From an uncultured Psychroflexus sp. (GTDB taxonomy: Bacteria > Bacteroidota > Bacteroidia > Flavobacteriales > Flavobacteriaceae): a DNA stretch of 64,000 nt. Positions 9,932 to 52,830 of this stretch are shown here, piece after piece. Position 1 is the stretch's first letter; each line of letters opens with the position of its first letter. The stretch covers positions 1 through 64,000 of the forward strand of contig CAJXVZ010000009.1 in assembly GCA_913062845.1 (NCBI GenBank). The letters are read 5' to 3'. The notes beneath the pieces are model-generated. The model did no database searches. It had not been told where the DNA came from and saw only the letters and a list, made by a program, of their open reading frames with translations. The position numbers and the translations under genes were made by a program.

Positions 9932-12900
9932 TTAGTAGTTCAGCTCACGTGTCTTTTGACCTGTCGTTCCAAAAAATTCAACTTTTGAAACATTTGAAGA
10001 AATAACAATGGACCGGGAAGATTGAGACATATAGCCTTGACCAGCGTGAAATTCAATTTTTCTGGTTTTGCTATTATTTAGATGCAGCAGAGCATACTGC
10101 TCACCGGCTTCGGGGTTGACCTGATTTCGGCCTTTCTGCTGAACTTCAAACGATTTTACGGCTTCATCGTTTCTGCCAATCAGTAATAACTCCTTTTCAG
10201 GGGTCTTTACACGCACTATACTTCTGGTATCGCCTTTAACAACAAAACCTGTTTCTTCGTGATTGCTTTCTGTAAAATTACCAAAACCGTCATTGATCAA
10301 GACATGACCTATAGAAGCATCGTACCGCCCCATACCGACTTCAGTACCGAAGTAATTACCGACTAAAACAGCGTCTAAGTAACCATCCTGATTAATGTCC
10401 TTTGCCAGAATACCATTCAAGGGCGCTATTTGTGCTGATAGCGGTAAAGGGCTTATTCTGAATTTGCCTTTTCCAAGATTTTCAATGTAAGAAGATCTTA
10501 ATTCGTGAGCTTCAAGTGTTTTTTGCGATTTGGTATCGAATAAATCAATTAAATCCTGGGTTGAAGATTGCGCAAAGGTGTTGTAGTACCTGAACTTTTT
10601 CGTGATTGAAGGCAGCTGACTGGCCAGTTGATCCAATGAAGCTATGGGGTAATATTGGCCTTGTTCGTACTTTGAAAAAATCGGATCTATTGAACCATTG
10701 TTATCAAAATCAGCAAAATCTAATCGAATGGGTTTGTCCTCCAGAATTTTTAAATTAGAATTTAGTCCCAAATTCCCAGCCATGAAGTCCATATCGCCAT
10801 CGTTATCAAAGTCTGCCGAGATAATACTGTTCCATAAACCGGAGGTATTGGGCAAACCTGTTGATTCGGTAATGTTCTCTAATGTTGAACCGTCCCCTTT
10901 AAGAAAGGTAACAGGCATCATTTCGCCAACAACAACAAGGTCCAAGTGGTTGTCGTTGTCAAAATCGGTCCATAAAGCTGAAGTTACTATACCTATATCC
11001 TGTAAGACCGGGCAAACCTTTTCAGTTGCTATTTTGAATTCACCATTGTTATTTTCAAGGATATAACTTTCAGGAGTTGTTGGGTATTTTCCGGGCATCA
11101 CCCGACCGCCGACAAACAAATCCATGTCGCCATCCGCATCAAAATCTCCGGCAGAGACCGCAGAAGTGCTGGTCAACATTTCTGGAAGTGGTTGTTCGAT
11201 GAGTTTTCCATTTTTTTGGATATATAATCTGTCCTGATAAGCTTCATGTCCGGCATACCGCTCAGAACCGCCACTTGCGACATACAAGTCTGCCAGGCCG
11301 TCATTGTTAGCATCAAAAATAACTGCGCCTCCATCTTCGTATGTTTCGGTATTTGGAATTGAAAACTTCCTAAACCTACCATCGCTGTTTTGGTACACTA
11401 TGCTCGAAGTATAGCCGTAGGTTCCTCCAATAAACACATCCTCTAATCCATCATTATTTAAATCATCTACCGCCATGCCAGGCCCTAAATCGGAGTGCTT
11501 TCTAAGCAAAAGCGACTGTGTATTAAAATCGTTATAGAGTTTGTTTTGATGAACAAATTGAATGCTTGAGTCTGCTTTAAAGTATCTTGCTTCGGTGACC
11601 TCTGATAAATTTGTATTAGGTATTTGCGCATTTTGGTCATTGATTAAGATTGTTTGGTTAGCTGAAACATCTTTTAAAACGGAAACACGCTGGTCCGGCC
11701 ATGCTACTTTTAAGCTGTCGATCTTTGAAGTACTTTTTAATCCGAAATGTATCAGGTTTCCAACAGAACTTTGAAATCCTCGGACAGGTTGGTGGTGCTT
11801 CACTAATATAGAATCTGCAATATATAGTGAAATTTTGGCGCCTCTTGCATTTCTGTTTTTAGATTTGCTGCTTAGCTTTAGCTTTAAATAATTTGTAGCT
11901 GTAGAGTCGGTTTCTCTAAGGGTGTTTTTATAAATAAATGCAGGCTTATTGATGTTATTCACCACTAAATCCAGATCGCCATCATTGTCTAAATCGGCAT
12001 AAGCCGCCCCATTAGATAAAGATTGTTCTTCAAAACCCCAGGCTTCAGATGTGTTTTCAAAATTTAAATCCCCTTTATTCTTAAAGGCGTAATTGGGGAC
12101 GATGATACTTGGGCGGGTGTACAGTGAGTCGATGACTGACTTTTCGGCGTCTTTTGCATTTCCAAAGGGTGTTTTGTTATTTTCTCTAAACTTGACAAAA
12201 TCCATATCGGTGATGTCTTTTCCAAAACCATTGGTAATAAAAATGTCGTTAAGACCATCGTTATCAAAATCTGCAATAAGTGGTGCCCAGCTCCAGTCTG
12301 TTTTATCTAGTCCTGTTAATTGTCCAATTTCACTAAAGGTGCTGTTACCATTATTGCGTTGAAGCATATTACGCATATGTTGATGCCCGTATCCATAATT
12401 CAAAGCTATCTGAAAAACATCGTGAGAGTGATGTGCGCCGGACATGAGCTTCCGCCGTTTAACATCTTCGGGTAACATATCTACCGTGAACACATCCAGG
12501 TAGCCGTCATTATTTATATCGCTAATGTCGTTACCCATAGAGAAGTGGCTCGTGTGTCCAAAATATTCTCTGGCTTGCTCTTTAAATGTCCCGTCCTTTT
12601 GGTTGATGTAAAGAAAATCTCTGGACAAATAATCGTTAGAGACATAGATATCCGGCCATTTGTCGTTATTGGCATCAAAAGTAGAAACGCCTAAGCCAAA
12701 GCCTTCAATGGTTATACCTGCCTCCTGAGATACATCTGTGTAAACTGCATGACCTTTTTCATAGTCAAAGTCGTTTCTGTATAAGCGGTCGGTATTTCGA
12801 CTTTGACCTTTATCAAGAATTGGTCTGATCATGATAGCCGATTTTTCAAAGCCGCCACCAGTCAGAAGGTACATGTCCAGGTCGCCGTCCAGGTCGTAAT

Positions 12901-25402: not shown

Positions 25403-25584
25403 ATAATATTAAAATCAGTCAAATTTAAGCTTTATAACTTGATTATGATGATTTTATCATGCAATTATTTTGTTAAGTCCATATCTTAAACCATTAAAAA
25501 TATAACATATAGATAACGTTAATTAACACTATTGATTTTATTTATACTTAATTTATTGTTAAATTTGATTTTAACTCTTTCCTA

Positions 25585-25689
25585 ATGTCTAAGGCAGTCA
25601 AAATATTTTTATGGTTTCTACTCATTTTTATTGTAGGTGTGCTTAGTATGTGGCTGTATATCAGATTTATCCTCGAAAAGACCCTTTAA
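25585..25689 (+). CDS. Small single-pass membrane peptide (34 residues)
   Basis: The 34-codon frame starts MSKAVKIFLW and has one hydrophobic helix of about 22 residues flanked by basic and acidic ends. It is preceded by a perfect -7 box TAAATTTG (25560-25567), 17 bases before the ATG, and a TTG 25 bases further up, which argues that it is expressed. I do not recognise a family. It could be a regulatory or accessory membrane peptide. Confidence is moderate because short open frames arise by chance. Confidence 0.5.
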   Translation: MSKAVKIFLWFLLIFIVGVLSMWLYIRFILEKTL

Positions 25690-25915
25690 TTTTTTTCCTT
25701 TAAATTTTATAAGCTCTGGTCATATGGGCTTCAATCGATTTTGGGTAAATATTTAAATACAACTTTACTATTCCGCAGAATTAATAAACCTGAATAAAAC
25801 AAAAAACAAGGCGATCCGGATGCCTATTCACCGGCAACTCAAAAAACGATAACAACGCCAGGGGTTTATAAAGTGATTGTTTATCAGTGGTAATACTGAT
25901 TTTTAAAATTTAGAA

Positions 25916-25963
25916 CTCACAGGCTTCACTTCGGCTACCCTCAGTGATCGTGAAACCTGTGAG
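25916..25963. repeat. Long inverted repeat in the rnr-DUF2007 intergenic region
   Basis: CTCACAGGCTTCAC (25916-25929) and GTGAAACCTGTGAG (25950-25963) pair over 13 of 14 positions with a 20-base loop, followed by a T-rich tract. It could be an intrinsic terminator of an upstream transcript or a copy of a dispersed intergenic repeat. The rest of 25690-26015 shows nothing else I can name. Confidence 0.55.
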
Positions 25964-26015
25964 ATCTTTTTTATTTATATCAATTTATTTCCTAAATTGG
26001 AAGAAAAATTCTGTC

Positions 26016-26261
26016 TTGCAAAATTACATCACCATAGCGCGTTATACCTACACTTACGAGTATGCTATTCTTAAGCTATTATTGGATAAAGCTCATATAC
26101 GCTGTTTCTTTAAAAATGAACAGTTTGCCAGCATTATGCCCATGAGCGCTATTGGTAATAATGGGATTTTGCTTCAGGTTCATGAAGCGGACAAAGAAGA
26201 AGCTATCAAAATTTTAGAAGAGTTCAATGCTTCGGATTCACCTTTGAGCCTGGTTAAATAA
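26016..26261 (+). CDS. DUF2007-family small protein
   Basis: The conserved part, NYITIARYTYTYEYAILKLLL through the C-terminus (VHEADKEEAIKILEEF), resembles DUF2007 proteins, which have a ferredoxin-like fold related to signal-transducing PII-like domains and no settled role. The start is uncertain: an ATG at 25944 adds 24 residues not typical of the family and overlaps the inverted repeat, so I prefer the TTG at 26016, directly before QNYITIARY. Confidence 0.7.
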   Translation: MQNYITIARYTYTYEYAILKLLLDKAHIRCFFKNEQFASIMPMSAIGNNGILLQVHEADKEEAIKILEEFNASDSPLSLVK

Positions 26262-26279
26262 AAAATTTTAAATCATATC

Positions 26280-26396
26280 TTACTTATAATTCTTCTTTGT
26301 CATCTTATAAATCAGATAGGCAAATCCTAAAAGGAAATGGAAGATAATAATTCCTGCAACGATATAAATTGTAGTATTTGAAAAAATGACTGTCAT
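26280..26396 (-). CDS. Small single-pass membrane peptide (38 residues)
   Basis: The frame encodes 38 residues starting MTVIFSNTTIY, with one long hydrophobic stretch (about 9-30) and a lysine-rich end (KMTKKNYK), so N-out/C-in insertion is likely. A perfect -7 box TAAGTTTG lies upstream on the minus strand (26422-26429). It converges with the DUF2007 gene. Function is unknown. Confidence 0.5.
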   Translation of the reverse strand: MTVIFSNTTIYIVAGIIIFHFLLGFAYLIYKMTKKNYK

Positions 26397-27204
26397 CAAC
26401 TTAGTTTCTAAATTTTATTTTCAAACTTACTTATCAACATTATATAAATACATATTTCTTTTATTTAAAATTTTAAAAAATAAATGATTGTTATTATTGT
26501 CTGTTGAAATGTGCAATATCTTATTTAATGAAAATTTGCTTTTTTAATTATAAAGTCCGAATAGGTAATTATAAACATAATTGATAAAACTAAATAATCA
26601 CTGTATCAAACTTTTGGAATCAGATATGAACAATTGTTGATAATCCAGATTTTAATAAACTGTCAATTCTTTCTAAGAATTAACCTGTTAATAACTGTTG
26701 AATTTTAAGGGAAAAGTTTTTTTAAAAAATGAATAGATCGTTTTGGTTGAGTAAAATATTTTTCCTGATGTTAATATTTAAGAACTGACCAAATTTTTCT
26801 TTCATTTAGATTGAAGAATTAATTAACACTAATGTTAATAATTATATTGCACAAAATCAATGAGTTAAATATTTTAATTAACAATGGCTTAACTTGTAGT
26901 TAATATACAGAAAATCAGAGTTTTGGGTTTATACCTTTAAAAAAACAGGCTAGAGGAATTATTAAATGGTAAATTATTCAATAAAGTTTGAAACTTCAAA
27001 GGTCTTCAGCTTTTGATTTTAATAGACCTTTGAGGTTTTGATTACTATTCATTTGTTTACCACCAAAAAATAAAATGAACCAGACTAAAATCTGTTAAAG
27101 AAGAATACTTTTTTAATAAGTTGATGTTAAATAAGATTATAATTTGTGATTCAGTGCTACAATGCCTTTATTGTTAAATTGTATAAATATTAAATAAAAG
27201 ATTT
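26397..27204. other. Long AT-rich intergenic region
   Basis: About 800 bases without a credible protein gene. It contains the inverted repeat ATTAACA-ctaa-TGTTAAT (26822-26839), a 9-bp stem CAAAGGTCT/AGACCTTTG (26997-27005 with 27024-27032), and several related TTAACA/TGTTAA words. These may be operator sites for the downstream DUF4168 gene or part of an unannotated RNA. I see no tRNA, rRNA or recognised riboswitch. Confidence 0.4.
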
Positions 27205-40546: not shown

Positions 40547-41077
40547 ATGAACCTTATCGATGTATTTGTTGGAGTTATTTTGTTACTGGGCTTTTACTCC
40601 GGTTTTAAAAAGGGACTTATCGTAGAACTTACATCTTTTGTAGGATTAATTTTAGGTGTTTTAGGTGCTTATTATATGACAAAACACCACGGATTATATA
40701 TTGGCCAGTGGCTGAAATGGGAACCTGAGTATATAAAAATACTGACTTTTTTGATAAGTTTCATACTCATCATCATTATAGTATCTCTTATTGGTAAAGG
40801 AATCACTAAACTTATGGACCTGGTTGCACTAGGTACCATCAATAAAATTCTTGGTGGAATATTTGGACTTTTAAAATTAGCTTTGATTTTAAGTGTTTTG
40901 ATGCTGCTTTTTAATTTGATAAATGCTGAAGTCAAAATTGTGGATGAGCAAACGCTGGATGAGTCACTCTCCTACCCTATTCTCAATAGTTTATCAGAAA
41001 GTGTCTGGACGAGATTAGTGGATTTGAGTCAGGAACACAAAGAAACTATAGATCAATTACCAGACATTAATGAGTAA
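40547..41077 (+). CDS. cvpA: CvpA-family membrane protein
   Basis: The 176-residue protein has four hydrophobic segments and the CvpA start MNLIDVFVGVILLLGFYSGFKKGLI, given here as MNLIDVFV and YSGFKKGLI. CvpA in enterobacteria is linked with colicin V export and envelope stress; the role in Bacteroidota is not known. It is intact and its last 21 bases overlap the convergent end of the damaged response-regulator gene. Confidence 0.88.
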   Translation: MNLIDVFVGVILLLGFYSGFKKGLIVELTSFVGLILGVLGAYYMTKHHGLYIGQWLKWEPEYIKILTFLISFILIIIIVSLIGKGITKLMDLVALGTINKILGGIFGLLKLALILSVLMLLFNLINAEVKIVDEQTLDESLSYPILNSLSESVWTRLVDLSQEHKETIDQLPDINE

Positions 41078-41706
41078 ATTATAATTCTTTATTGTATTTT
41101 TTTCTGATAGCTCAGCTTTTGAGTTAATTTCGAGCGTATTATATATGTTTTTAATGTGACTTCTAACTGTATCCAGAGAGATAAATAAGTCTGCCGCAAT
41201 CATTTTATAGCTTTTTCCATTCACAATGCCATTTACAATCTCCTGTTGTCTTTCAGTAAGGATCTTACTGGGTTTTGGTGCATAGAAATTCGCTATTTTT
41301 CTGGCAATAGCCGGTGAAATGTAGGAACCACCTTCCGCTACTACATCAATAGCTTCCTTTATTTTTGTGAGTGATATTCGCTTAGAGACATATGAGCATG
41401 CACCTGCACTCAAAGCTTTAAATATCATATCGGTCTCTTCAAATGTGGTCAAAATGATTACATCCAGTGCTGGTTTTAATTTTTTAATAAAAGGCAAAGA
41501 TTCTACACCGGTTTTACCCGGAAGCTGAATGTCTAAAAGTAAAATAAAATCCTCCTCTTTTTCCACTTCTAACCAGGATATAAAATCTTCAGTATTGTTA
41601 AATGTTTTCAGGACTTTGATGCCTTCAGTTGAATTTAAAAAGGTGATCAGGCTATCCATAATGACTAGATCATCTTCAACGATAACGATATTTTTTTTAG
41701 GTTCAA
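41057..41706 (-). pseudogene. LuxR/NarL-type response regulator, 5' end disrupted
   Basis: From the internal ATG at 41659 the frame encodes 200 residues with the phospho-acceptor strand LLLDIQLPGKTG, the LTTFEETD segment and a C-terminal LuxR helix-turn-helix (LTERQQEIVNGIVNGKSYKMIA, given as LTERQQEIVNG and GKSYKMIA). The same frame continues upstream into IVIVEDDLVI, which is the missing first strand and acidic pocket, but it has no start codon. A TTG start (MNLKKN-) exists in another frame and would join if the A8 run (T8 at 41691-41698) had one more base. So the gene is probably frameshifted. The C-terminus is also odd. It would have been partner of the adjacent kinase. Confidence 0.75.
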
Positions 41707-41758
41707 AACGGCTGTTGATTTGTTTTTCAAACTATAACAAAATGTATTAATACTAACT

Positions 41759-41772
41759 CACATTATCATGTG
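41759..41772 (-). promoter_or_regulatory. CACAT-N4-ATGTG site A (response-regulator promoter)
   Basis: CACATGATAATGTG on the minus strand lies between the kinase stop and the response-regulator start. Exactly 23 bases downstream is ATAGTTTGA, a -7-like element at the same distance as in sites B and C, suggesting an autoregulated promoter. Confidence 0.68.
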
Positions 41773-41776
41773 AAAT

Positions 41777-44700
41777 TCAAATATGTTGAGGCAAGGATAA
41801 TTCTATTTTAAAACCGTTTGAGGTATCAAACAACAATTGAGCATTCATATGTTCAGATCGCATTTTCATATTCGCAAGCCCTTGACCGGTACTTTTCCTT
41901 GTAGACTTTATGTTTCCATCGTCCTGAATATAAAACCTGTACATGCCGTTCTTATAGGTCATCAGTACGTTGACTTTTTTGGCATTAGAATGCTTAAGAA
42001 CATTGGTTATAGTTTCCTTAAAGATCAAAAATAAATTCCTGCGATAGTTCAGATTCAGTTTTTTTTGAGCCTTGTATACCTTCTGTTTTTACTTCAAATT
42101 CTATTCCGGATGGCAATAGATATTCTTCGGCGTATTCCTACATACGTTCAATCAAATCTTGTACATTGTCCTTTCTGCTGTCTATACTCCAGACAAAATC
42201 TCTCATGTGGGCTATTGTATTTCGGCTCAGTTGCGTCAATCTTTTGAGTTTTTTCTTTTCCGATTGACTTTTTGCCTGCATTTCCAGCATTTCTGTTTGC
42301 ATAGCAAGTCCGGTCAACATTGAGCCCACATCATCGTGAAGTTCACTTGAAATCTCGCTCCTAAGCCTTTCAATAGCAAGGGCTTGCTGAAGTCTGTATT
42401 GAAAAATACTGTAAATGATGACACCTATGAAAAGGATAAGGATTAAAATAAACCACCAGGTCTTATAGAAAATCTGTTCTACACGTATAGGAATTTCTAA
42501 ACCGGCTTTACTTTGATTCCCATTGATATTTACACCATTTATTCTAAGAACATATTCTCCTGCAGGCAATTGATTGTATCTGATACTGTTGGCATTGCCT
42601 TGAAAAAACCATTTGTTTTCAAAACCTTCCATCATAGCATAATAGGTGTAGTTGTTGGCATCAAAATAATCTGGCACAGACCAATCAACTTTCAAATTGA
42701 TTTCATAAGGAGACAATACAACAGGCTTGTTTTCAAGCTTTGTTAATTTAATGAGCGTATCCTTTTGCTTATTAAAAAATTCAAGCTGTGTAAAATTTAA
42801 AGCTGGCAATGCTTTTTTCTGGGATAGGTTACCAATTGAAAATTTGGTAATGCCGTTTAAGCCACCAAAATAAAAGTCCCCATTTTGTACTTTATAAGCA
42901 GAGGTATAATTGAATTCATTATTGGATAATCCATCCTTTTCGAAGTAATTTTGGATGCCCTTAGTTTTCAAATTAATACGACTTAAACCATTATAAGTTG
43001 CTGCGATAATTTGATTTTCACCTGCAGGTAATACAGAAACGACATTATTGTCACATAGCCCGATTTGTGTATCTATAATTTGAAGACTATTATCATTCAG
43101 ATCCAATACATTAATGCCACCACCAAAAGTACCTATGAAAAGTTTCTCATTAACTTCCTTAAGACATAATATGGAATTTTTACTTAAAGATGGTGATGTG
43201 GTGATATTATATTGAGCTTCTATTTTACCGTTTAAGTTTAGCTTTATAAGGCCATGACTTCTGGTACCAACCCAGATAATGTCCGGGTTTTTCTTACTTT
43301 GTAATAAAGTTTTGAGGATATAATCATTTTTTGGCTTTTCCTTAAAAACAGGCTTATAAGCTTTTGTTTTTTGATCAACCTTAATTAATCGGGAAAGCGT
43401 ATATCCCATCAACAAAGAGTCATTATTTAAAGTGGTTAGTGGATTGGATTTCGTTTCGTTAAGAAAAGGATTAAACTGATTGAAAATCAATAATTCATTA
43501 GTATCAAAATTAATTTCAATCAGAGAATTAGTGACTGTAAATGCACGATTGTTTATGGTATCAGATACAAAAAATCGAGCGTCTTTAAGTCGTTCATCAC
43601 TTTCAGCTATATCAATACTCTGTGTTTCGCCTGACGTCTTTATTTGATACAGTCGATTTTCAGTTTCACACATGGCCACAACGTCTCCGTTTTTTAAGCT
43701 AAAAATGTTTCTGAAACTAATGCCCCATTCTGCATCCGGACGGTGAAGTAATTTTTGAAAATTTTGTGGAATTAACTTCACTTTAATGAGGCCATTATCG
43801 GTGCTTATCCACAACAGGTTAGAATAATCTACATAGACTGAAGTGATATCTGAAGAATTTAAAACACTTCCAATTTCTGCTGTATAGTCAAAAACATCAC
43901 CTGAAGGACTACGGTAGAAAACGGCTTTTTTTCCCGTAAACCATACACCACCTTCTTTATCCTCTACGGCATTATAAAAAACCGAAGGGTGATTTATTAA
44001 ATTGTATTCAAATTCAAAACCATTATAAACATCTACTCCACCTTTGGTTTCAGAAAAATAATAGTGTCGGTCTTTAGAGTCAAAGAAAGACTCTCCGTAG
44101 TGAATAGTCTTACCATACCAGTCATAGGTATCTAAAATGTCTTGATGTAAAAGCTCACCATCCAGACTGAATAAAGACAGACCATAGTTCACTGTTGTCC
44201 AGCACACATGATTGGATTTTGTAATATCTATAGAAGTAAAACCTGCGCTATTTCGGGTTAATGATTTTATCTTTTGAAATGACTTTCCATCATACTTGAT
44301 GAGATGTTGAGCCTTTTGATTATTGATAGGATGATCTAATACAATCCATAAATTATTCGTTTTATCCAAAGCAATATCGAGGACTTAACCTTTTAAAGCT
44401 TTTTCGAGTCCTTCTATTTGCTCAAGCTTTTCAGTATCGAGATTTAATGAAAACAATTTATGATTAGCGATATACCACAGCTTGTTGGTTGTACTTTGAT
44501 ATTCAAAATCTAATATGTCTTCGTAAGGAATAAAATTAGGATTGTTACGGCTATTGTTAAAGGTCTTGAAAGTATTACCATCATACTTGGCGATACCCTG
44601 TGAAGTTCCAAACCACATGAATCCCTTTTGATCCTGTACAATAGAATTAACGTGCCTAAAGTTAAGACCGTCATTCGTATTCAGGGTTTTTAGCCTAACA

Positions 44701-44777
44701 GTGTTTTGAGCAAAAAGGTAAGATGTACACGGGAATAAACCTATACAAATGATCAGTAAAACAGCTCTAACATTCAC
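41777..44777 (-). pseudogene. Propeller-type sensor histidine kinase, three lesions
   Basis: Joined across its lesions this is a kinase of about 1000 residues. It has a signal peptide (CTSYLFAQ), two-component-regulator propeller repeats (GLNFRHVNSIVQDQKGFMWF, shown as GLNFRHVNSI), a Y_Y_Y domain, one membrane helix (WWFILILILFIGVIIYSIF), a HisKA_3 domain with SSELHDDVGSM, and an HATPase domain (FKETITNVLKHSNAKKV, GQGLANMKMR). Lesions are an in-frame TAA at 44385-44387 (reading resumes immediately), an in-frame TAG at 42138-42140, and a one-base shift in the T8 run at 42059-42066. Such proteins sense sugars or other ligands in Bacteroidota. The gene is divergent from the 45006 cluster. Confidence 0.88.
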
Positions 44778-44924
44778 AATTATAGATTTTTCGCTATCAA
44801 ATATACCATTTCTATTCTATTCAATTTGTCTTACCTGATATTATTTGATGAACAATAGGTTGGCTATAAAATTAGATATATATCAATAAAAAGGCTTTTT
44901 AATTTAATAGGTCATCTAAATAAC

Positions 44925-44938
44925 CACATTTATATGTG
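44925..44938 (+). promoter_or_regulatory. CACAT-N4-ATGTG site B with spaced -7 element
   Basis: CACATTTATATGTG, preceded by aac and followed by attg, is followed 23 bases later by CTAAATTGC (44962-44970), 36 bases before the small membrane protein start. The flanks and the spacing equal those at site C. Confidence 0.72.
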
Positions 44939-45005
44939 ATTGTCATAATATTATTTCTTGGCTAAATTGCAATTATAATTATTAACCCATCTAAAATTTA
45001 GTCTC

Positions 45006-45176
45006 ATGAAAACACTTTCTTTTAAAATGACAGATGTTCTTTACTTTTTTGTATTCCTAAGTTTGGCTGTTTGTTTATTCTATGTACTTCTTAAACTTCC
45101 TGAATGGATCGAGGCCTTCAAAGCATTATCAATAGCCGCTGAGATGCCCGATATTGAATACATCGCAGGAAATTAA
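45006..45176 (+). CDS. Small single-pass membrane protein (56 residues)
   Basis: The frame starts MKTLSFKMTDV and has one strong membrane helix (about 12-31) followed by an amphipathic, acidic C-terminus (LPEWIEAFKALSIAAEMPD). It is intact, unlike the long genes around it. It lies directly downstream of site B and its -7-like element, which supports expression. I do not recognise a family. It is probably the first gene transcribed in the regulated cluster. Confidence 0.6.
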   Translation: MKTLSFKMTDVLYFFVFLSLAVCLFYVLLKLPEWIEAFKALSIAAEMPDIEYIAGN

Positions 45177-45258
45177 AATTCTACAAAAGATGAAATTAAA
45201 CCTCTGTTTTCTTCTAAAATCTTGCAAAGCATAAGGTTTATAACATTTCATTAACAAC

Positions 45259-45272
45259 CACATCAACATGTG
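45259..45272 (+). promoter_or_regulatory. CACAT-N4-ATGTG site C with spaced -7 element
   Basis: CACATCAACATGTG with the same flanks as site B (aac before, attg after) is followed 23 bases later by CTAAATTGC (45296-45304), 29 bases before the start of the next gene. The repeat of both sequence and spacing makes chance unlikely. Confidence 0.72.
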
Positions 45273-45333
45273 ATTGGCTAACAAAATGAACTTATCTAAA
45301 TTGCTAACAATTAAATAACTAAAACCTAATATC

Positions 45334-46059
45334 ATGAAAAAACTATTGATTTTACTAATGATTTTCCCTCTTATGGCTTTTGCACAGGAGGTAGAAGAGC
45401 GAATTATGACCATGACCGAATTCAAGATTAAACAAGGTCACGGAGCTCAATTTAAGGATGGTGTAAAAAAATGGAAAGAATGTTACACCAATGATGGTGG
45501 AGAAAATACCTGGGGCTTTTGGTCTAGAATGTAAGGAGAAGGAACTGTATATGGCCTTACGGGTTTTATGGATAACTGGGCTGAAATGGATGAAACCGAC
45601 GAGGCCGGCAAAGATTGCTATTCCATTGTCATGAACTTCATCATGCCTCATGTTGAATCTGTTACAAGTAACATGGCCAGAACCTTACCCGATTGGAGCA
45701 AAAGATTAGCTCCTGAAGAAATGAAACTGACCTGGGTCACCTATTTCAAGGTAGAAGACACGGGAGATTTTTCTGATGTGATTAAAGAGGTCTCAGCAAC
45801 GATGACCAAAGTAGAAGGAGAACCAAGAAGATATTGGTACAGACTGATAGGCGGTGACAGAGATAATGCCGATTATATGGTGTCCGGTATTTATAAAAAC
45901 TGGGCTGAATTGGACATAGATAGAGATAGCCCTTATGAAATGTATGTGAAAGAAAAAGGCGAAGAAAAAGCTATGGAAATGGATAAATTATGGGACTCTG
46001 CCGGCGTAGAATCCTGGTCGTATATCTGGGTGTACGATGAAGAATTATCTAAAAGTTGA
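45334..46059 (+). pseudogene. Secreted protein with duplicated domain, in-frame stop
   Basis: One frame of 241 codons is interrupted by TAA at 45532-45534 (probably from CAA) and then continues. After a signal peptide (MIFPLMAFAQ) there are two related halves: one has WGFWSRM...VYGLTGFMDNWAEMDE (residues 60-90), the other YWYRLIGG...YMVSGIYKNWAELDID (about 165-205). Each looks like a dimeric alpha/beta-barrel unit of the kind seen in antibiotic-biosynthesis-monooxygenase-like proteins, but I cannot name a family. It is under site C, first of a plus-strand run of damaged genes. Confidence 0.75.
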
Positions 46060-46145
46060 TAACTACCAATTTTCTATATATTTAAGAATAGGTCTGACTG
46101 TTTATTTGAATGGTCCGGCCTATTTATTAGTTTATTCAAGTTTGT

Positions 46146-46900
46146 ATGGATTTAAAATTAAAAGGCAAAAACGCTATTGTAACAGGTGGCAGTAAAAGTA
46201 TAGGTCGAAGCATTGCACTTAACCTCGCTAAAGAAGGTGCGAATGTCGCTATCTGTGCAAGAGGCAAAGATGCTCTGCTAAAGACTAGAAAGGAGCTCTT
46301 ACAAATGGGAGTCTCTGTTATCGCATTGGTATGCGATGTCGGAAATTCTAAAGACCTCAACGCTTTTCTGGACACGGTAAAAAAACAATTTGGTGCCATA
46401 GATGTTTTGGTAAATAATGTATCGGCTCTGAGTTTAGGAAATGACATCAAAGATTGGGAAAAATCTTTAAATGTCGATGTAATGGCCAGTGTAAGGGCGA
46501 CCAGACAAGTCATCCCTTGGATGGAAGAAGCCGGAAGCGGTAGCATTTTGTTTATTTCCTCCGGTTCAGGACTGGCAGCCGGTTCTCCACCGGCCTATGC
46601 CGCAGCCAAGGCAGCCATTATCAGTTATTCTAAAACCATTGCTATCGAATTGGCGCCAAAGAACATTAGAGTGAACACCATCGCTCCGGGGTCTATAGAA
46701 TTTCCCGGCGGCCTCTGGGAGTTAACAAAAAAGAAAACAGGCCATTTTATGATCAGGTCTTTGGCAGTATAGCTTCCGGAAGAATGGGTACTGCAGATGA
46801 GATTGGAAAAGTTGCCGCATTTATCGTTTCTCCGGCAGCCAGTTGGGTGGTTGGAACATGCCTGAATGTTGATGGAGGACAACACAAAGCTAACAACTAA
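46146..46900 (+). pseudogene. Short-chain dehydrogenase/reductase, frameshifted near the 3' end
   Basis: The first 200 codons give a normal SDR: NAIVTGGSKSIGRSIA for NAD(P) binding, NNVSA, the catalytic Ser in FISSGSG and the YxxxK in AYAAAK. After TGHF the frame is lost at a T4 run (46745-46748). With one more T it reads YDQVFGSIASGRMGTADEIG and on to a normal SDR end (CLNVDGGQ) at 46900. The protein as encoded lacks the substrate-side helix and C-terminal strand. Substrate unknown. Confidence 0.88.
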
Positions 46901-46936
46901 AGGCGTTGTAAAATAACTCTTTATTCATCCTAAACT

Positions 46937-48239
46937 ATGAAAACTCAAACCCTGAACAAGATTCCAAAAAAAGAACTGATCTTATCTAAAAATCCTGTCC
47001 TTCGCTACCTCAGTTTTTCGGGCTTATACCTGGCTTTTTACCATACCCGCATGGTTGGCCATGAATGGAAAATCCACTATGGAAATAGGTGCTTTTGTGG
47101 CCATCGCCGGCTTGCCATGGAGTTTTAAAATTATTATTGCTCCCATTATAGACTGGTATACCATCCTATCCATGGGACGAAAACGGCCGTGGATCATCGT
47201 TGCCCAATTGGGGCTGATTTTAAGTTTTTTATCCATTGGCTTAATTCCCGATCCCCTGAACAACATGACCGGCCTTATGGTTTCGGGATTTTTAATTGGT
47301 TTTTTTGCGGCGTTTCAGGATGTCGCCACAGATGCCATGGTCGTAGATATTGTACCTGAAAAAGAAAAAGCAAGGGCCAATGGCCTGATGTGGGGTGCAA
47401 AAACGATTGGTGTTTCCTTAACACTTTTCATTGGAACAACACTCATTGGCCTGATAGGTTTTACATATGCGATTGCCGCGCTATCGATACCTATTGCTTT
47501 TATCATTCTTATTCCTATTTGTTTTAGAGAACGGCTCGGCGAAAAGTTCTTCCCATGGACTAAAGGTGAAGCCTCTAAAGAATCTAAGAGTTTACAATTA
47601 CGAAGTTGGAAAACCATCGTCAAAAACCTATTCAAAGTGGTCATTTTGCCATCGGTAACAATTATGATCATCATTTCGTTTATCAGCGGAACGATAATGG
47701 GTTTTTACGACACAGTTCTCTCAGTGTTAACCATTCAAGAGTTGGGTTGGACCAACGACTACTACTCGCAAATCTTTTCCATGACTACACTATTTGCGGG
47801 GATTTTCGGCATGTTTGTGGGTGGTCCTTTAGTAGACTTTTTTGGAGATAAAAGAATGCTTAAAGTATATTTTGCACTTCAGGTATTAACCATTGTTTTG
47901 TTTGCAGTCTTTTCTTCATTTTGGGAAAAGAACATATTTATATTTGGTTTCTTTCTACTGTTTTACTTGTTTAATGTCTTTTCTGTTATTGGCTTGTTTT
48001 CAGCGTCTATGAAGCTGAGTTGGAAAATAATAGCCGCTACTCAATTTACTTTATTCATGGCTGTTTCAAATATTGGGCGCTCTGTTGGATCCGGGGTCAT
48101 TGGTCCACTAAGAGAATACTTCAGCTGGCCAAACCTTATACTTGCTTCTGCCTTACTGCCTTTAATCATCATTCCTTTGATCCATTATGTGAATTTTGAC
48201 CGTTGCCAAACCAAAATCAAAAAATTAATTTCAACTTAA
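46937..48239 (+). pseudogene. MFS transporter (AmpG-like), frameshifted in the first helix
   Basis: Starting at the ATG of 46937, 33 codons lead into the first membrane helix (LSFSGLYLAF). A T5 run (47035-47039) then has one base too many; with four T the frame continues TIPAWLAMNGKSTMEIGAF and on through 12 helices to 48239. The motif DVATDAMVVDIVPEKEKARANG resembles AmpG/PAT-type MFS permeases (shown in part: DVATDAMVVDI). From an internal ATG at 47055 most of the protein could still be made, but without helix 1. Substrate unknown. Confidence 0.85.
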
Positions 48240-48250
48240 AACAAAAAATC

Positions 48251-49651
48251 ATGAAATCAAAACTTATTTTAAGTCTTATGCTCTTATTTTTTTGTTGGGC
48301 TTGACAGCAAAACGAATCAGAACCTCAAAAAGAAAATGAGGAACACGTCCACTTATCCGGGAACATTAAAAATTACAATGGTGCTATTTTAAAGATTCAG
48401 GATTTTATGGGACGGTCAAGTTGGGAAACCGAAATTGAAGTTAATGACGGCAGTTTTTCCACAAATTTATCTGTAGATATGCCCACGTTCACCATGTTAA
48501 CTTTTAGCAGAACCTTTAAGAACATCTTCTTACAGCCCGGAGAAACGCTGGAAATTTCCTTTGATACCAAGGCTATAGACAGCAGTTTCAGTTATGCAGG
48601 AAGTTTGGCTGAAGAGAATGCCATATTAGATTCTATAAGGACTGAGCAACGTAAAATGGATTTCAAGTATGTGTACAGTGCGCCTTTAGAAAATGCTTCT
48701 CAATATTTGGATTCAGTGACCAGAGCACATAACAGCTATCTCACTCGTCTTGTCAAAGATAAAACGCTACAACCAAAATTTATTGATTTCGCCAAAGCAT
48801 CTATCGATTACTTCAGCGCCAAGTGCAAATTATATATAGCCTCCAGAAAAGGGGCATATCCGAGTGGTTATTTTGATTTTATTGAAGATTTGGAAATAGA
48901 AAATGAAGAATACCTCGGCATCATTGATTATCGTAGTTTTTTAAATGAATACATTACTATGAAGGCTCAGGAAAGATTAAGCCAATTGGATTCAACTCAA
49001 CAAGATGACACTGATGCACTTTTTGAAGAAAGCTTAAAAGTCATTAAAGATCTTGACAGTGAAGAAATAAAAAACTATGCCCTCTTTAATACCATGAATA
49101 TGAGGTTAAAAGATCAGGGTTTAAAGGGGTTTGATAAATTTTACGATTACTTTAAAGAAAATAACAAAGACCCGTATTATGACGAGCAGCTTGAACTGGT
49201 TTATGCTGAAAAGCTGAGCTTGGCACCAGGACAACCTGCACCGGAATTTACACTTGAAGATATAGACGGCAAAATGGTGTCATTGAGTGACTTCAATGGT
49301 AAATATGTCTATCTCGATTTTTGGCATACAGGCTGTAAATATTGTATAAAAGAAACAGATGCCTATGTCAAACTTTATGCTGACTACGCCGACGAGGATA
49401 TTACATTTGTGAGCGTTTCCGCAGATCTTGATAAAGGTAAATGGAAAAATTATGTTTTGAAAAATAAAAACGTTGGCACAAGCCTGGTAACCGAAAATTA
49501 TTGGGACTCAGAAGAATTTCAAAACTATCAGGTTAGTGCGTCTCCTACATATGTTATCGTGGACAAAGAGGGAAATATCCTTGATCCTAAATCACCTTAT
49601 CCTTCATCACCTGAAATCAGGGAAACTTTTGATCGCTTGGTAAATAATTAA
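48251..49651 (+). pseudogene. TlpA-like thioredoxin-domain lipoprotein, stop at the lipobox
   Basis: The ATG at 48251 begins a lipoprotein signal (MLLFFCWA) that runs into TGA at 48302-48304, exactly where the lipid-bearing Cys is expected; TGC or TGT to TGA would explain it. The frame is then open to 49651. An N-terminal beta domain (DUF4369-like), a helical middle and a TlpA/AhpC-type domain follow, with WHTGCKYC (CxxC redox pair) and ASPTYVIVDKEGN (cis-Pro). As a lipoprotein it would have reduced or isomerised disulfides in the periplasm. Internal starts such as 48407 would yield only a cytoplasmic form. Confidence 0.85.
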
Positions 49652-49863
49652 GCATAATTTTTTCTTTTATAAAAGAATTGAAATTTATCATTTGTGACTA
49701 TGAAATCAAAATGTTTAGGCTTAAAATAAGAGTTATTGCAATCGATAAAAATAATTTCAAGAAACATAAAAACATTTTAGCCCTATGTAATTAACTAGCT
49801 TTAGTCTCAAAATCAACAAGTGAATCAAGTCAGTTAATTTGTTAGTCTAATAACAAATTGTCA

Positions 49864-51088
49864 ATGAAAGTACTAAAACCGATCACCAATCTCGACCGGA
49901 TTGAATTCTTAGACATCCTTCGAGGCATGTCAATCTTTTTTATTTTTACGGCAAACATCCCCCTTTTTTGCAGGACTCTGGTTCTTTGATGCTGATAGCG
50001 AAATACTCGAAATCAACTGGACCAGCGATGAGCCTTTACGTTATATTCACTACGTATTTGTTGATGGCAAATTCTATTCCATATTTTCTCTGCTTTTTGG
50101 TATCGGCTGTGTCATTCAATACAACAATGCGACCTCAAAAGGAAAGTCTTTTACCGTCTTTTTCAGAAAACGCATGTTCTGGCTTTTAGTCATTGGATTA
50201 GTTCATTTGTGTTTATTCTGGCCTGGAGATATTTTAACGCTTTACGCTATACTTGGTTTTCCCATGATCTGGTTTGTAAACAAATCAAACAAAATTTTGC
50301 TCATCACTGCGGGCATTTTAATATTACTGCCCATCGTAAATTTGGCAGTCATGCATTTTGCTAAATTGCCTTACTCAAAGCTGTTTTTTACTTTAGATAC
50401 AGCGGTTTATCAATACTTTAATATGCCAGTCATAGAAAATAACGGTAATAAGATGCCTAATTTTCGGGCCTATTTGCTTAACCAGAATATTTTGGGTTTT
50501 TTTAAAATGAACCTTGGTAATACTTTCGGAAGAATAGGTATGATTCTGCTTGAAGGCCGTATCTTTAAGGTCTTTGGGATATTTCTTATAGGCATCTGGG
50601 CTGGCAGAAAAATACTTAATGGCAACCTCTTGACCAACAAACCCTTCTTAAAAAAAGTGTTCTGGATTGGGTTGGTTTTTGGCTTACCTTTCAACCTCAT
50701 AAGAGGCTACTTAGAATTCTATGCCGTGGATGACATGACCAACAAATTTATGCACTCTACCTGTTATGCTTTAGGTACTGTTCCTATGGCATTAAGTATT
50801 GCCGCGGGTATTGCTTTACTCTGCATTAATGGTAATCTGTTTTTAAGGTTGTTTATTTCTGTTGGTAAAACTGCTTTGACCTGTTATCTCGTCCATACTT
50901 TGGCTGGTATAGTTTTATTTTATTGCTTTGGTTTTGAACTCACTGGTAAATATGGCTTTACCATAGTCATGCTCATTGCTATAGTTGTTTTTACAGGTCA
51001 GGTGATCATAAGCCGAATATGGTTAAAACACTTTGAATTTGGACCAATGGAATGGGTGTGGCGTAAACAGGTATATGGTTTTAGATAA
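49864..51088 (+). pseudogene. DUF418 (YeiB-like) membrane protein, frameshifted
   Basis: The ATG at 49864 gives ITNLDRIEFLDILRGMSIFFIF, a typical DUF418 start (shown as RIEFLDILRGMSIF). Then a T6 run (49964-49969) has one base too many; with five the frame reads GLWFFDADSEILEINW and continues to 51088 through some ten hydrophobic segments, including the C-terminal DUF418 region (LTCYLVHTLAGIVLFY, EFGPMEWVWR). The role of the family is unknown. It is the last damaged gene of the run. Confidence 0.85.
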
Positions 51089-51249: not shown

Positions 51250-52830
51250 ATGAAACCTATTCCTGAAATTTATAGCATCTCATCTCCACTTGAAGCCGAC
51301 CAATATTTAATTGATGGTGTACTTAAAACCTGGAAAGGCAAAACAGTTGAGGTCAACTCTACCATATCTGTTACAGAGGAATATAAGCCAACCTATATTG
51401 GCAGTGTTCCTGAACTTGAAGAAGCACAGGCCCATGAGGCTTTAGATGCCGCTTTAGGTGCCTACGATAAGGGAAAAGGCCTCTGGCCGACCATGCGGGT
51501 TAGAGAACGCATAGAATGTATGGAAAGCTTCATACAGAAAATGGAAACCAAACGTGATATCGTGGTCAAACTCATCATGTGGGAAATTGGTAAGAATCTG
51601 GCTGATGCCGAAAAAGAATTCGACCGGACGGTAAAATATGTTTATGATACCATTGAAGATTATAAACAATTAGACAGAAATGCTGCAAAATTTGAAAAGC
51701 ATGAAGGCGTATATGCGCACATCCGACGTGGACCGCTTGGTGTGGTGTTATGTTTAGGACCATATAACTATCCTTTGAATGAAACTTTTGCCTTACTCAT
51801 TCCTGCATTGATCATGGGCAACACGACCATTTTTAAACCGGCTAAATTTGGTGTGCTTTTGATCACACCTTTGCTTGAAGCTTTTCAGGAAAGTTTTCCG
51901 GCCGGAGTTGTTAATATTATTTTTGGAAGAGGGCGAGTACTAGCCAGCCCGATCATGCAAACCGGAAAAATTGATGTCTTAGCATTAATCGGAAACAGTA
52001 AATCAGCCAATGCATTGATCGATCAGCATCCTAAAAGTAATCGACTGAGATTAGTATTAGGACTTGAAGCTAAAAACCCGGCTATTGTATTGCCAGATGC
52101 TGATCTGGATTTAGCCGTTAAGGAGTGTATTTCGGGAAGTTTGTCATTTAACGGCCAACGTTGTACAGCTTTAAAGATCATTTACGTTCACGAAGAGATT
52201 AAAGATGAATTCCTACAACATTTCAATAAAGCTGTAGACAATCAAAATTTTGGAAATCCCTGGGATGAAGGTGCATTTTTAACTCCTCTACCTGAACCCG
52301 ACAAACCACAATACATCCAGGAATTGATTGATGATGCTTTAGAGAAAGGCGCTAAAATACTCAACAAAAAAGGAGGTCAGCATTTTGAAAACTATATTTG
52401 GCCGGCTGTCCTATATCCGGTAACCAAGGATATGCGCGTCTATCAGGAAGAACAATTCGGGCCGGTGATTCCGGTGGTGTCTTTTTCGGATATTGATGAA
52501 CCTATTGACGATATGGCTGATTCAAATTATGGTCAGCAGGTTAGCCTTTTTGGCACAAACGTAGAGAAATTATCGCCATTGATCGATACTTTTACAAATC
52601 TGGTATGTCGTGTGAACCTGAACAGTTCTTGCCAACGTGGACCGGATGTATATCCGTTTACAGGAAGAAAGGACTCAGCAAAATCCACTTTGAGTGTCCA
52701 CGATGCACTGAGGTCTTTTTCCATAAGAACTTTTGTGGCTTCCAAAGACAATCCTCAAAACCTTGAGATTTTAGAGCAATTGCTTGAAAAGAAACAATCT
52801 AAGTTTATCAGTACGGATTATATTTTGTGA
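51250..52830 (+). CDS. gapN: NADP-dependent glyceraldehyde-3-phosphate dehydrogenase-type aldehyde dehydrogenase
   Basis: This 526-residue aldehyde dehydrogenase has the catalytic Cys in [10 protein letters not shown] (Cys305) and the general base Glu in LGLEAKNP (Glu273). The coenzyme site includes [10 protein letters not shown] and KPAKFG. Sequence style and length match the GapN group annotated in Flavobacteriia, which oxidises glyceraldehyde-3-phosphate to 3-phosphoglycerate with NADPH formation and no ATP. Other aldehyde substrates are possible. The gene is intact, separated by 161 bases from the damaged block, and ends in a double hairpin. Confidence 0.88.

Follow-up and report, generated by a model that had tools for sequence, protein, structure and literature searches.

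A patchily distributed regulon has very probably lost its function recently in an uncultured Psychroflexus species, as judged from the state of its genes. Between a cvpA-like gene and a gapN-like gene, each of the seven long genes of a two-component module carries a lesion relative to intact relatives of the genus, as had been claimed in a first-pass annotation made from the sequence alone. The two flanking genes were correctly described there as intact, since both align to their counterparts in the relative G014 without a lesion. The locus lies in a stretch of 64,000 nucleotides (hereafter, the window) on contig C9 of a 3,373,734-base draft assembly (155 contigs, completeness 99.96%). This host genome is designated G000 and the other genomes of the genus G0xx, 27 in all. 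Within the cvpA-gapN interval, the response regulator and kinase genes are on the minus strand and the other five long genes on the plus strand, as follows:

40547..41077, plus strand: cvpA-like gene, left neighbor outside the broken module; intact (name from the first reading)
41060..41731, minus strand: response regulator (RR), NarL-type, REC + GerE; broken (Pfam and frame-aware alignment)
41759..41773, no strand: predicted operator CACATTATCATGTGA, 5′ of RR; intact (genome-wide pattern search)
41780..44783, minus strand: sensor histidine kinase, Reg_prop, Y_Y_Y, HisKA_3, HATPase_c; broken (Pfam on pieces)
44925..44939, no strand: predicted operator CACATTTATATGTGA, 5′ of the kinase; intact (genome-wide pattern search)
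45006..45176, plus strand: 56-codon ORF, open, unsupported as a gene; downstream of the operator at 44925, hydrophobic by eye
45259..45273, no strand: predicted operator CACATCAACATGTGA, 60 nt 5′ of DUP; intact (genome-wide pattern search)
45334..46059, plus strand: duplicated-domain protein (DUP); broken (signal peptide by eye)
46146..46900, plus strand: SDR oxidoreductase; broken (Pfam, alignment to the intact G014 SDR)
46937..48239, plus strand: MFS transporter, weakly AmpG-like; broken (Pfam; NCBIfam below cut-off)
48251..49651, plus strand: TlpA-like thioredoxin-fold protein; broken (Pfam, alignment)
49864..51088, plus strand: DUF418 membrane protein; broken (Pfam, alignment)
51250..52830, plus strand: gapN-like aldehyde dehydrogenase, right neighbor; intact (name from the first reading)

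Composition of the module and its predicted operators

Pfam matches on separate pieces place HisKA_3 and HATPase_c domains in the kinase and REC and GerE domains in the RR, which is the make-up of a NarL-type system; no named system is assigned, because the NCBIfam matches displayed for these two proteins fall below their cut-offs. In domain content and in the palindromes at its own promoters, the module resembles NarL/FixJ two-component systems with Reg_prop/Y_Y_Y sensors, but here it is broken. The Reg_prop/Y_Y_Y sensor part is also like that of the hybrid two-component systems (HTCS) of Bacteroidota, in which a single polypeptide unites the kinase, the receiver, and an AraC-type output. Identity with HTCS was ruled out, as kinase and RR are encoded separately here and GerE takes the place of AraC as the output domain. 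Literature searches listed nothing on the module for Psychroflexus and nothing relevant on this sensor type. As a weak suggestion, the module possibly serves the uptake and oxidative handling of some small compound.

DUP has no sequence match in Pfam, NCBIfam, or PDB, and its family is conserved in carriers of the module (e.g., L010:8226-8951 and L011:12866-13594). Its AlphaFold model is poor (pLDDT 44.5), and the order of strands and helices offers bare hints of two ferredoxin-like halves. The 56-codon ORF has no match above 35 bits in the 12 loci searched. Outside the module, the cvpA product aligns end to end with that of G014 (61%, lesion-free), and the gapN product is 87% identical to its G014 counterpart and likewise lesion-free, the NCBIfam matches displayed for it being below cut-off. 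At 25403-27204, the window has few long ORFs and a low G+C content (0.284 at 26-28 kb).

The pattern CACAT-N4-ATGTGA has three exact loci genome-wide, one of them found on both strands, and all lie within the module, 5′ of the RR, kinase, and DUP genes and within 3.5 kb of one another. A reversed control pattern gave three genome matches as well, so that the count alone is not unusual; the clustering within 3.5 kb is. Each of the seven other carriers has two or more copies of the core motif CACAT-N4-ATGTG in its loci, located 5′ of RR (with one mismatch in G016) and also in the promoter region of the kinase or of DUP. Where DUP is encoded elsewhere in the genome, as in G022 and G026, a core-motif site precedes it by about 65-80 bases. 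Outside the module, the core motif was found at two places in an 848-kb sample of the host genome, on contigs C3 and C8. From its position and conservation, we infer that CACAT-N4-ATGTG is the binding site of the RR. In the intact state, the propeller-type sensor kinase would phosphorylate the NarL-type RR, which would then bind this site and switch on the divergent genes and its own gene. This operator and its target set constitute a sharp prediction for the sensor system and for the DUP family. All three module operator sites are intact in the window although the RR is broken.

Lesions, age, and order of decay

When aligned to orthologues with open frames in G014, G016, or G025, the seven module genes show ten lesions. 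Four are in-frame stops, of which the kinase has two and DUP and the TlpA-like gene have one apiece; six are frame breaks, two of them in RR and the remaining four spread singly over the kinase, SDR, MFS, and DUF418 genes. The first-pass annotation had listed nine, all of which stand, but its total has to be raised by a second RR frameshift at ~41109, near the C-terminus, which was absent from it and was detected by frame-aware alignment; as a result of this shift, the RR frame extends into the end of cvpA. The comparison with intact orthologues that had been proposed at that stage was run in relatives from the genus, where the module frames are open: the kinase in six of the seven other carriers and DUP in all seven.

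Most lesions were found where they had been placed before. The kinase, which has intact orthologues of 1000 aa in G014 and G016, carries TAA at 44385-44387, TAG at 42138-42140, and a shift, formerly given as 42059-42066, at ~42059-42071. Alignment to intact orthologues likewise recovered the TAA at 45532-45534 in DUP (73% identity end to end with the G016 protein) and the TGA at 48302-48304, residue 18 of the TlpA-like protein (76% to the G014 orthologue). The MFS shift lies at the T5 run 47035-47039, as judged against the open G025 MFS (61%), and the DUF418 shift, previously at 49964-49969, at ~49959-49969 (74% to the intact G014 orthologue). The SDR shift exists, but not at 46745-46748: alignment puts it ~15 bases earlier, at ~46727-46735, within or beside an A6 run at 46727. 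The RR was said to lack an in-frame start, and indeed its frame contains no ATG, GTG, or TTG from the upstream stop up to the receiver domain. In four of seven relatives (the parsable ones), a TTG or GTG start is located 5-6 codons before that domain; the corresponding TTG of the window falls in another frame and precedes an 8-base run at 41691-41698. A functional backup copy elsewhere in G000 was considered and rejected for the kinase, DUP, MFS, and DUF418 genes, which have one place each (cut-offs 1e-40, 1e-15, 1e-30, and 1e-20, respectively). Other TlpA-like matches in G000 are only 24-36% identical, and the genome encodes 20 further response-regulator receiver domains.

The decay of the module looks recent. 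Motifs that we take to be the kinase H-box, the phospho-acceptor Asp, the SDR YxxxK, and CxxC are still present in the broken pieces. A stop-count clock, with four stops in 9,039 bases and a nonsense fraction of 0.044-0.051 per random substitution, gives a neutral divergence of 0.9-1.0% since constraint ended (95% range, 0.24-2.6%), on the assumption that every stop arose after the loss. Relative rates were obtained by counting window-unique versus G016-unique changes in one piece per gene. With G014 as the outgroup, the counts are 70:69 for the kinase, 13:13 for RR, 12:13 for DUP, and 26:10 for SDR; with outgroups G013 and G025, they are 71:43 and 49:29 for the kinase and 18:9 and 20:11 for RR. 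The rate is thus raised in SDR, not significantly so in RR and DUP, and dependent on the outgroup in the kinase, and the SDR figure suggests that this gene may have been relaxed earlier or more strongly. Violations of otherwise invariant residues in the window are within the range of intact relatives for the kinase, DUP, and SDR, while the RR rate equals the highest among such relatives, so that extra damage is not shown by this measure. The earlier claim of a recent loss is therefore favored by the preserved motifs, the intact operators, and the stop-count clock, while the relative-rate results are mixed.

The companion claim, that the function was lost as a unit, is supported by the clustering of the lesions. 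A point against the main reading is that ten lesions placed randomly by gene length hit all seven genes only ~4% of the time. Under loss as a unit, constraint on the entire unit would have ended, and stops and frameshifts would have accumulated in every gene within ~1% neutral divergence, while promoters, motifs, and neighbors would still look normal. Alternatively, as a variant of this reading that we advance tentatively, one early event (e.g., loss of RR) may have silenced the regulon, with the other genes decaying passively. The module has a single regulator and a single family of operators, as this variant would have it, and follow-on decay within operons has been proposed for Shigella (PMC3218036). 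The module of G013 also has the appearance of such an early stage, as its otherwise open kinase carries a single frameshift (L012 ~10756-10768) and its other genes align without stops; this frameshift reflects either incipient loss or a fault in the assembly. Against a single initiating event, SDR appears more relaxed than RR, and a single genome does not reveal the sequence in which the lesions arose, a limit that applies equally to loss as a unit.

Distribution and fate of the module in the genus

Psychroflexus is presumably free-living. At the cut-offs used, the kinase and DUP have one and the same distribution within the genus (8 of 27 genomes). Across the family, DUP is encoded by 26 of 349 sampled genomes, which represent 21 of 237 genera. 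In G014, an intact module occupies the same site between cvpA and gapN, together with cargo that has no counterpart in the window (solute symporter, RidA, SnoaL-like, hydrolase, and MBOAT genes). The window MFS has no match in G014 at 1e-30, and the SnoaL-like protein of G014 has none in G000 in a search run without a positive control. In G011, a close relative, the module is missing and cvpA and gapN are adjacent, ~350 bases apart. The edges of the damage in the window had been said to coincide with those of the apparent regulon, and both the filled site in G014 and the cvpA-gapN adjacency in G011 bear this out.

The G011 site retains a fossil, consisting of the last 20 residues of RR directly behind cvpA (L213 2039-2098); this tail is 95% identical to that of G014 (E = 1.8e-6), and the gapN product of G011 is 90% identical to that of G014. 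Among 26 cvpA loci, some of which end at a contig edge, an RR match above 25 bits was detected at three: those of G011 and of the carriers G000 and G014. In G024, cvpA also adjoins gapN, and the RR tail is absent, suggesting that this empty site may never have held the module. For the module in the window, the next stage would be a block deletion that leaves a short RR tail, as in G011.

A gapN tree of 17 genomes, with the partial G024 left out, groups G000 with G006, G009, G011, G014, and G019 (support 1.000); G014 and G011 pair with a support of 0.967, and the placement of G000 beside them has a support of only 0.075. In the respective gene trees, the window kinase and DUP are nearest to those of G016, the kinase placement being weakly supported, and close relatives of the TlpA-like and DUF418 proteins were found only in G014. 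This conflict suggests that parts of the module may have been exchanged.

Intact in G014, broken but still wired in G000, and deleted with a fossil in G011, the module forms a compact natural series, through which strain collections could be used to test directly in what order and how fast a regulon is lost. It is conceivable, though rather unlikely, that selection in the genus has acted against the module repeatedly and perhaps actively, a lost or harmful environmental cue making its carriage costly; it is broken in the window and deleted in G011, its kinase is broken in G013, and 19 of 27 genomes yielded no match to it. If so, the presence of at least one lesion per gene would be a trace of selection and not only of drift.

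Operon-wise gene decay is already known, and the module is an intermediate in whole-regulon loss. In Shigella, decayed genes concentrate in particular operons, and selection on the other members is considered to weaken once one of them is lost (PMC3218036). Compared with those decayed operons, the present case differs in that every long gene is hit while the sampled rest of the genome is nearly clean, in that the host is a flavobacterium, and in that one relative has a finished deletion with a fossil. The additions made here are a sampled control, a tenth lesion, a shared predicted operator, and the loss series.

Local damage compared with the rest of the genome

The control sample comprised 40 stretches plus the window, i.e., 848,595 of 3,373,734 bases or a quarter of the genome. 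ORFs of 100 aa or longer, drawn from 1.2 Mb of G016 sequence and 0.28 Mb of G014 sequence, served as references; every place that one of them matched at 45% identity and 60% coverage was compared, which gave 202 genes, and a lesion filter was applied that skips the first and last 6% of each gene. Four of six module genes were flagged, versus 2 of 196 others (Fisher p = 3e-6, same filter and sample). The true figure for the module is seven of seven, because the filter misses both RR lesions and the TlpA-like stop and the MFS gene had no reference in the sample. Applied to the relatives themselves, the same procedure gave 4 flags among 226 genes of G016 and none among 87 of G014. In a looser first pass, 6 of 44 genes had been flagged, three of them outside the module (on C1, C2, and C10); these three places are not among the flags of the stricter second pass, in which terminal lesions were ignored, more references were used, and the best reference was kept per place.

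That the lesions stem from mistakes in sequencing or assembly, chiefly at homopolymers, is very unlikely. With its 155 contigs, the assembly is a draft, and the frameshifts do coincide with homopolymers or adjoin them (one T8 run at the RR start and another in the kinase, A6 in SDR, C5T6 in DUF418, and T5 in MFS, with a T7 run a few bases from the shift in the RR tail). However, four lesions are in-frame stops, which are not run-length errors, and the 196 other genes contain 569 homopolymer runs of at least 6 bases with one frameshift outside the terminal 6%, in a β-barrel gene on C8, compared to 32 such runs in the module genes. The ten other window genes compared, all outside the module, are unflagged. 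With just two flags among the 196 other genes, and one of these false, assembly error is unlikely. That the genes still work through recoding, slippage, or phase variation can hardly be credited: surviving motifs and operators would suit expression, and homopolymer tracts can slip, but TAA, TAG, and TGA are all involved along with shifts, in seven unrelated families simultaneously, at sites that are open in relatives and in a genome where 194 of 196 other genes are unflagged.

Genome-wide decay, too, finds no support in the sampled stretches. Of the two outside flags, the false one, at C8:43049-43858, in a presumably coaX-like gene, is not a pseudogene but reflects a mis-set reference start, as an open 243-aa frame begins after the flagged stop. 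The other is a second likely pseudogene, encoding an outer-membrane β-barrel protein (OMP_b-brl_3; G000 C8:38204-40974) with a stop and a frameshift; its orthologues are broken in G016 and open in G014.
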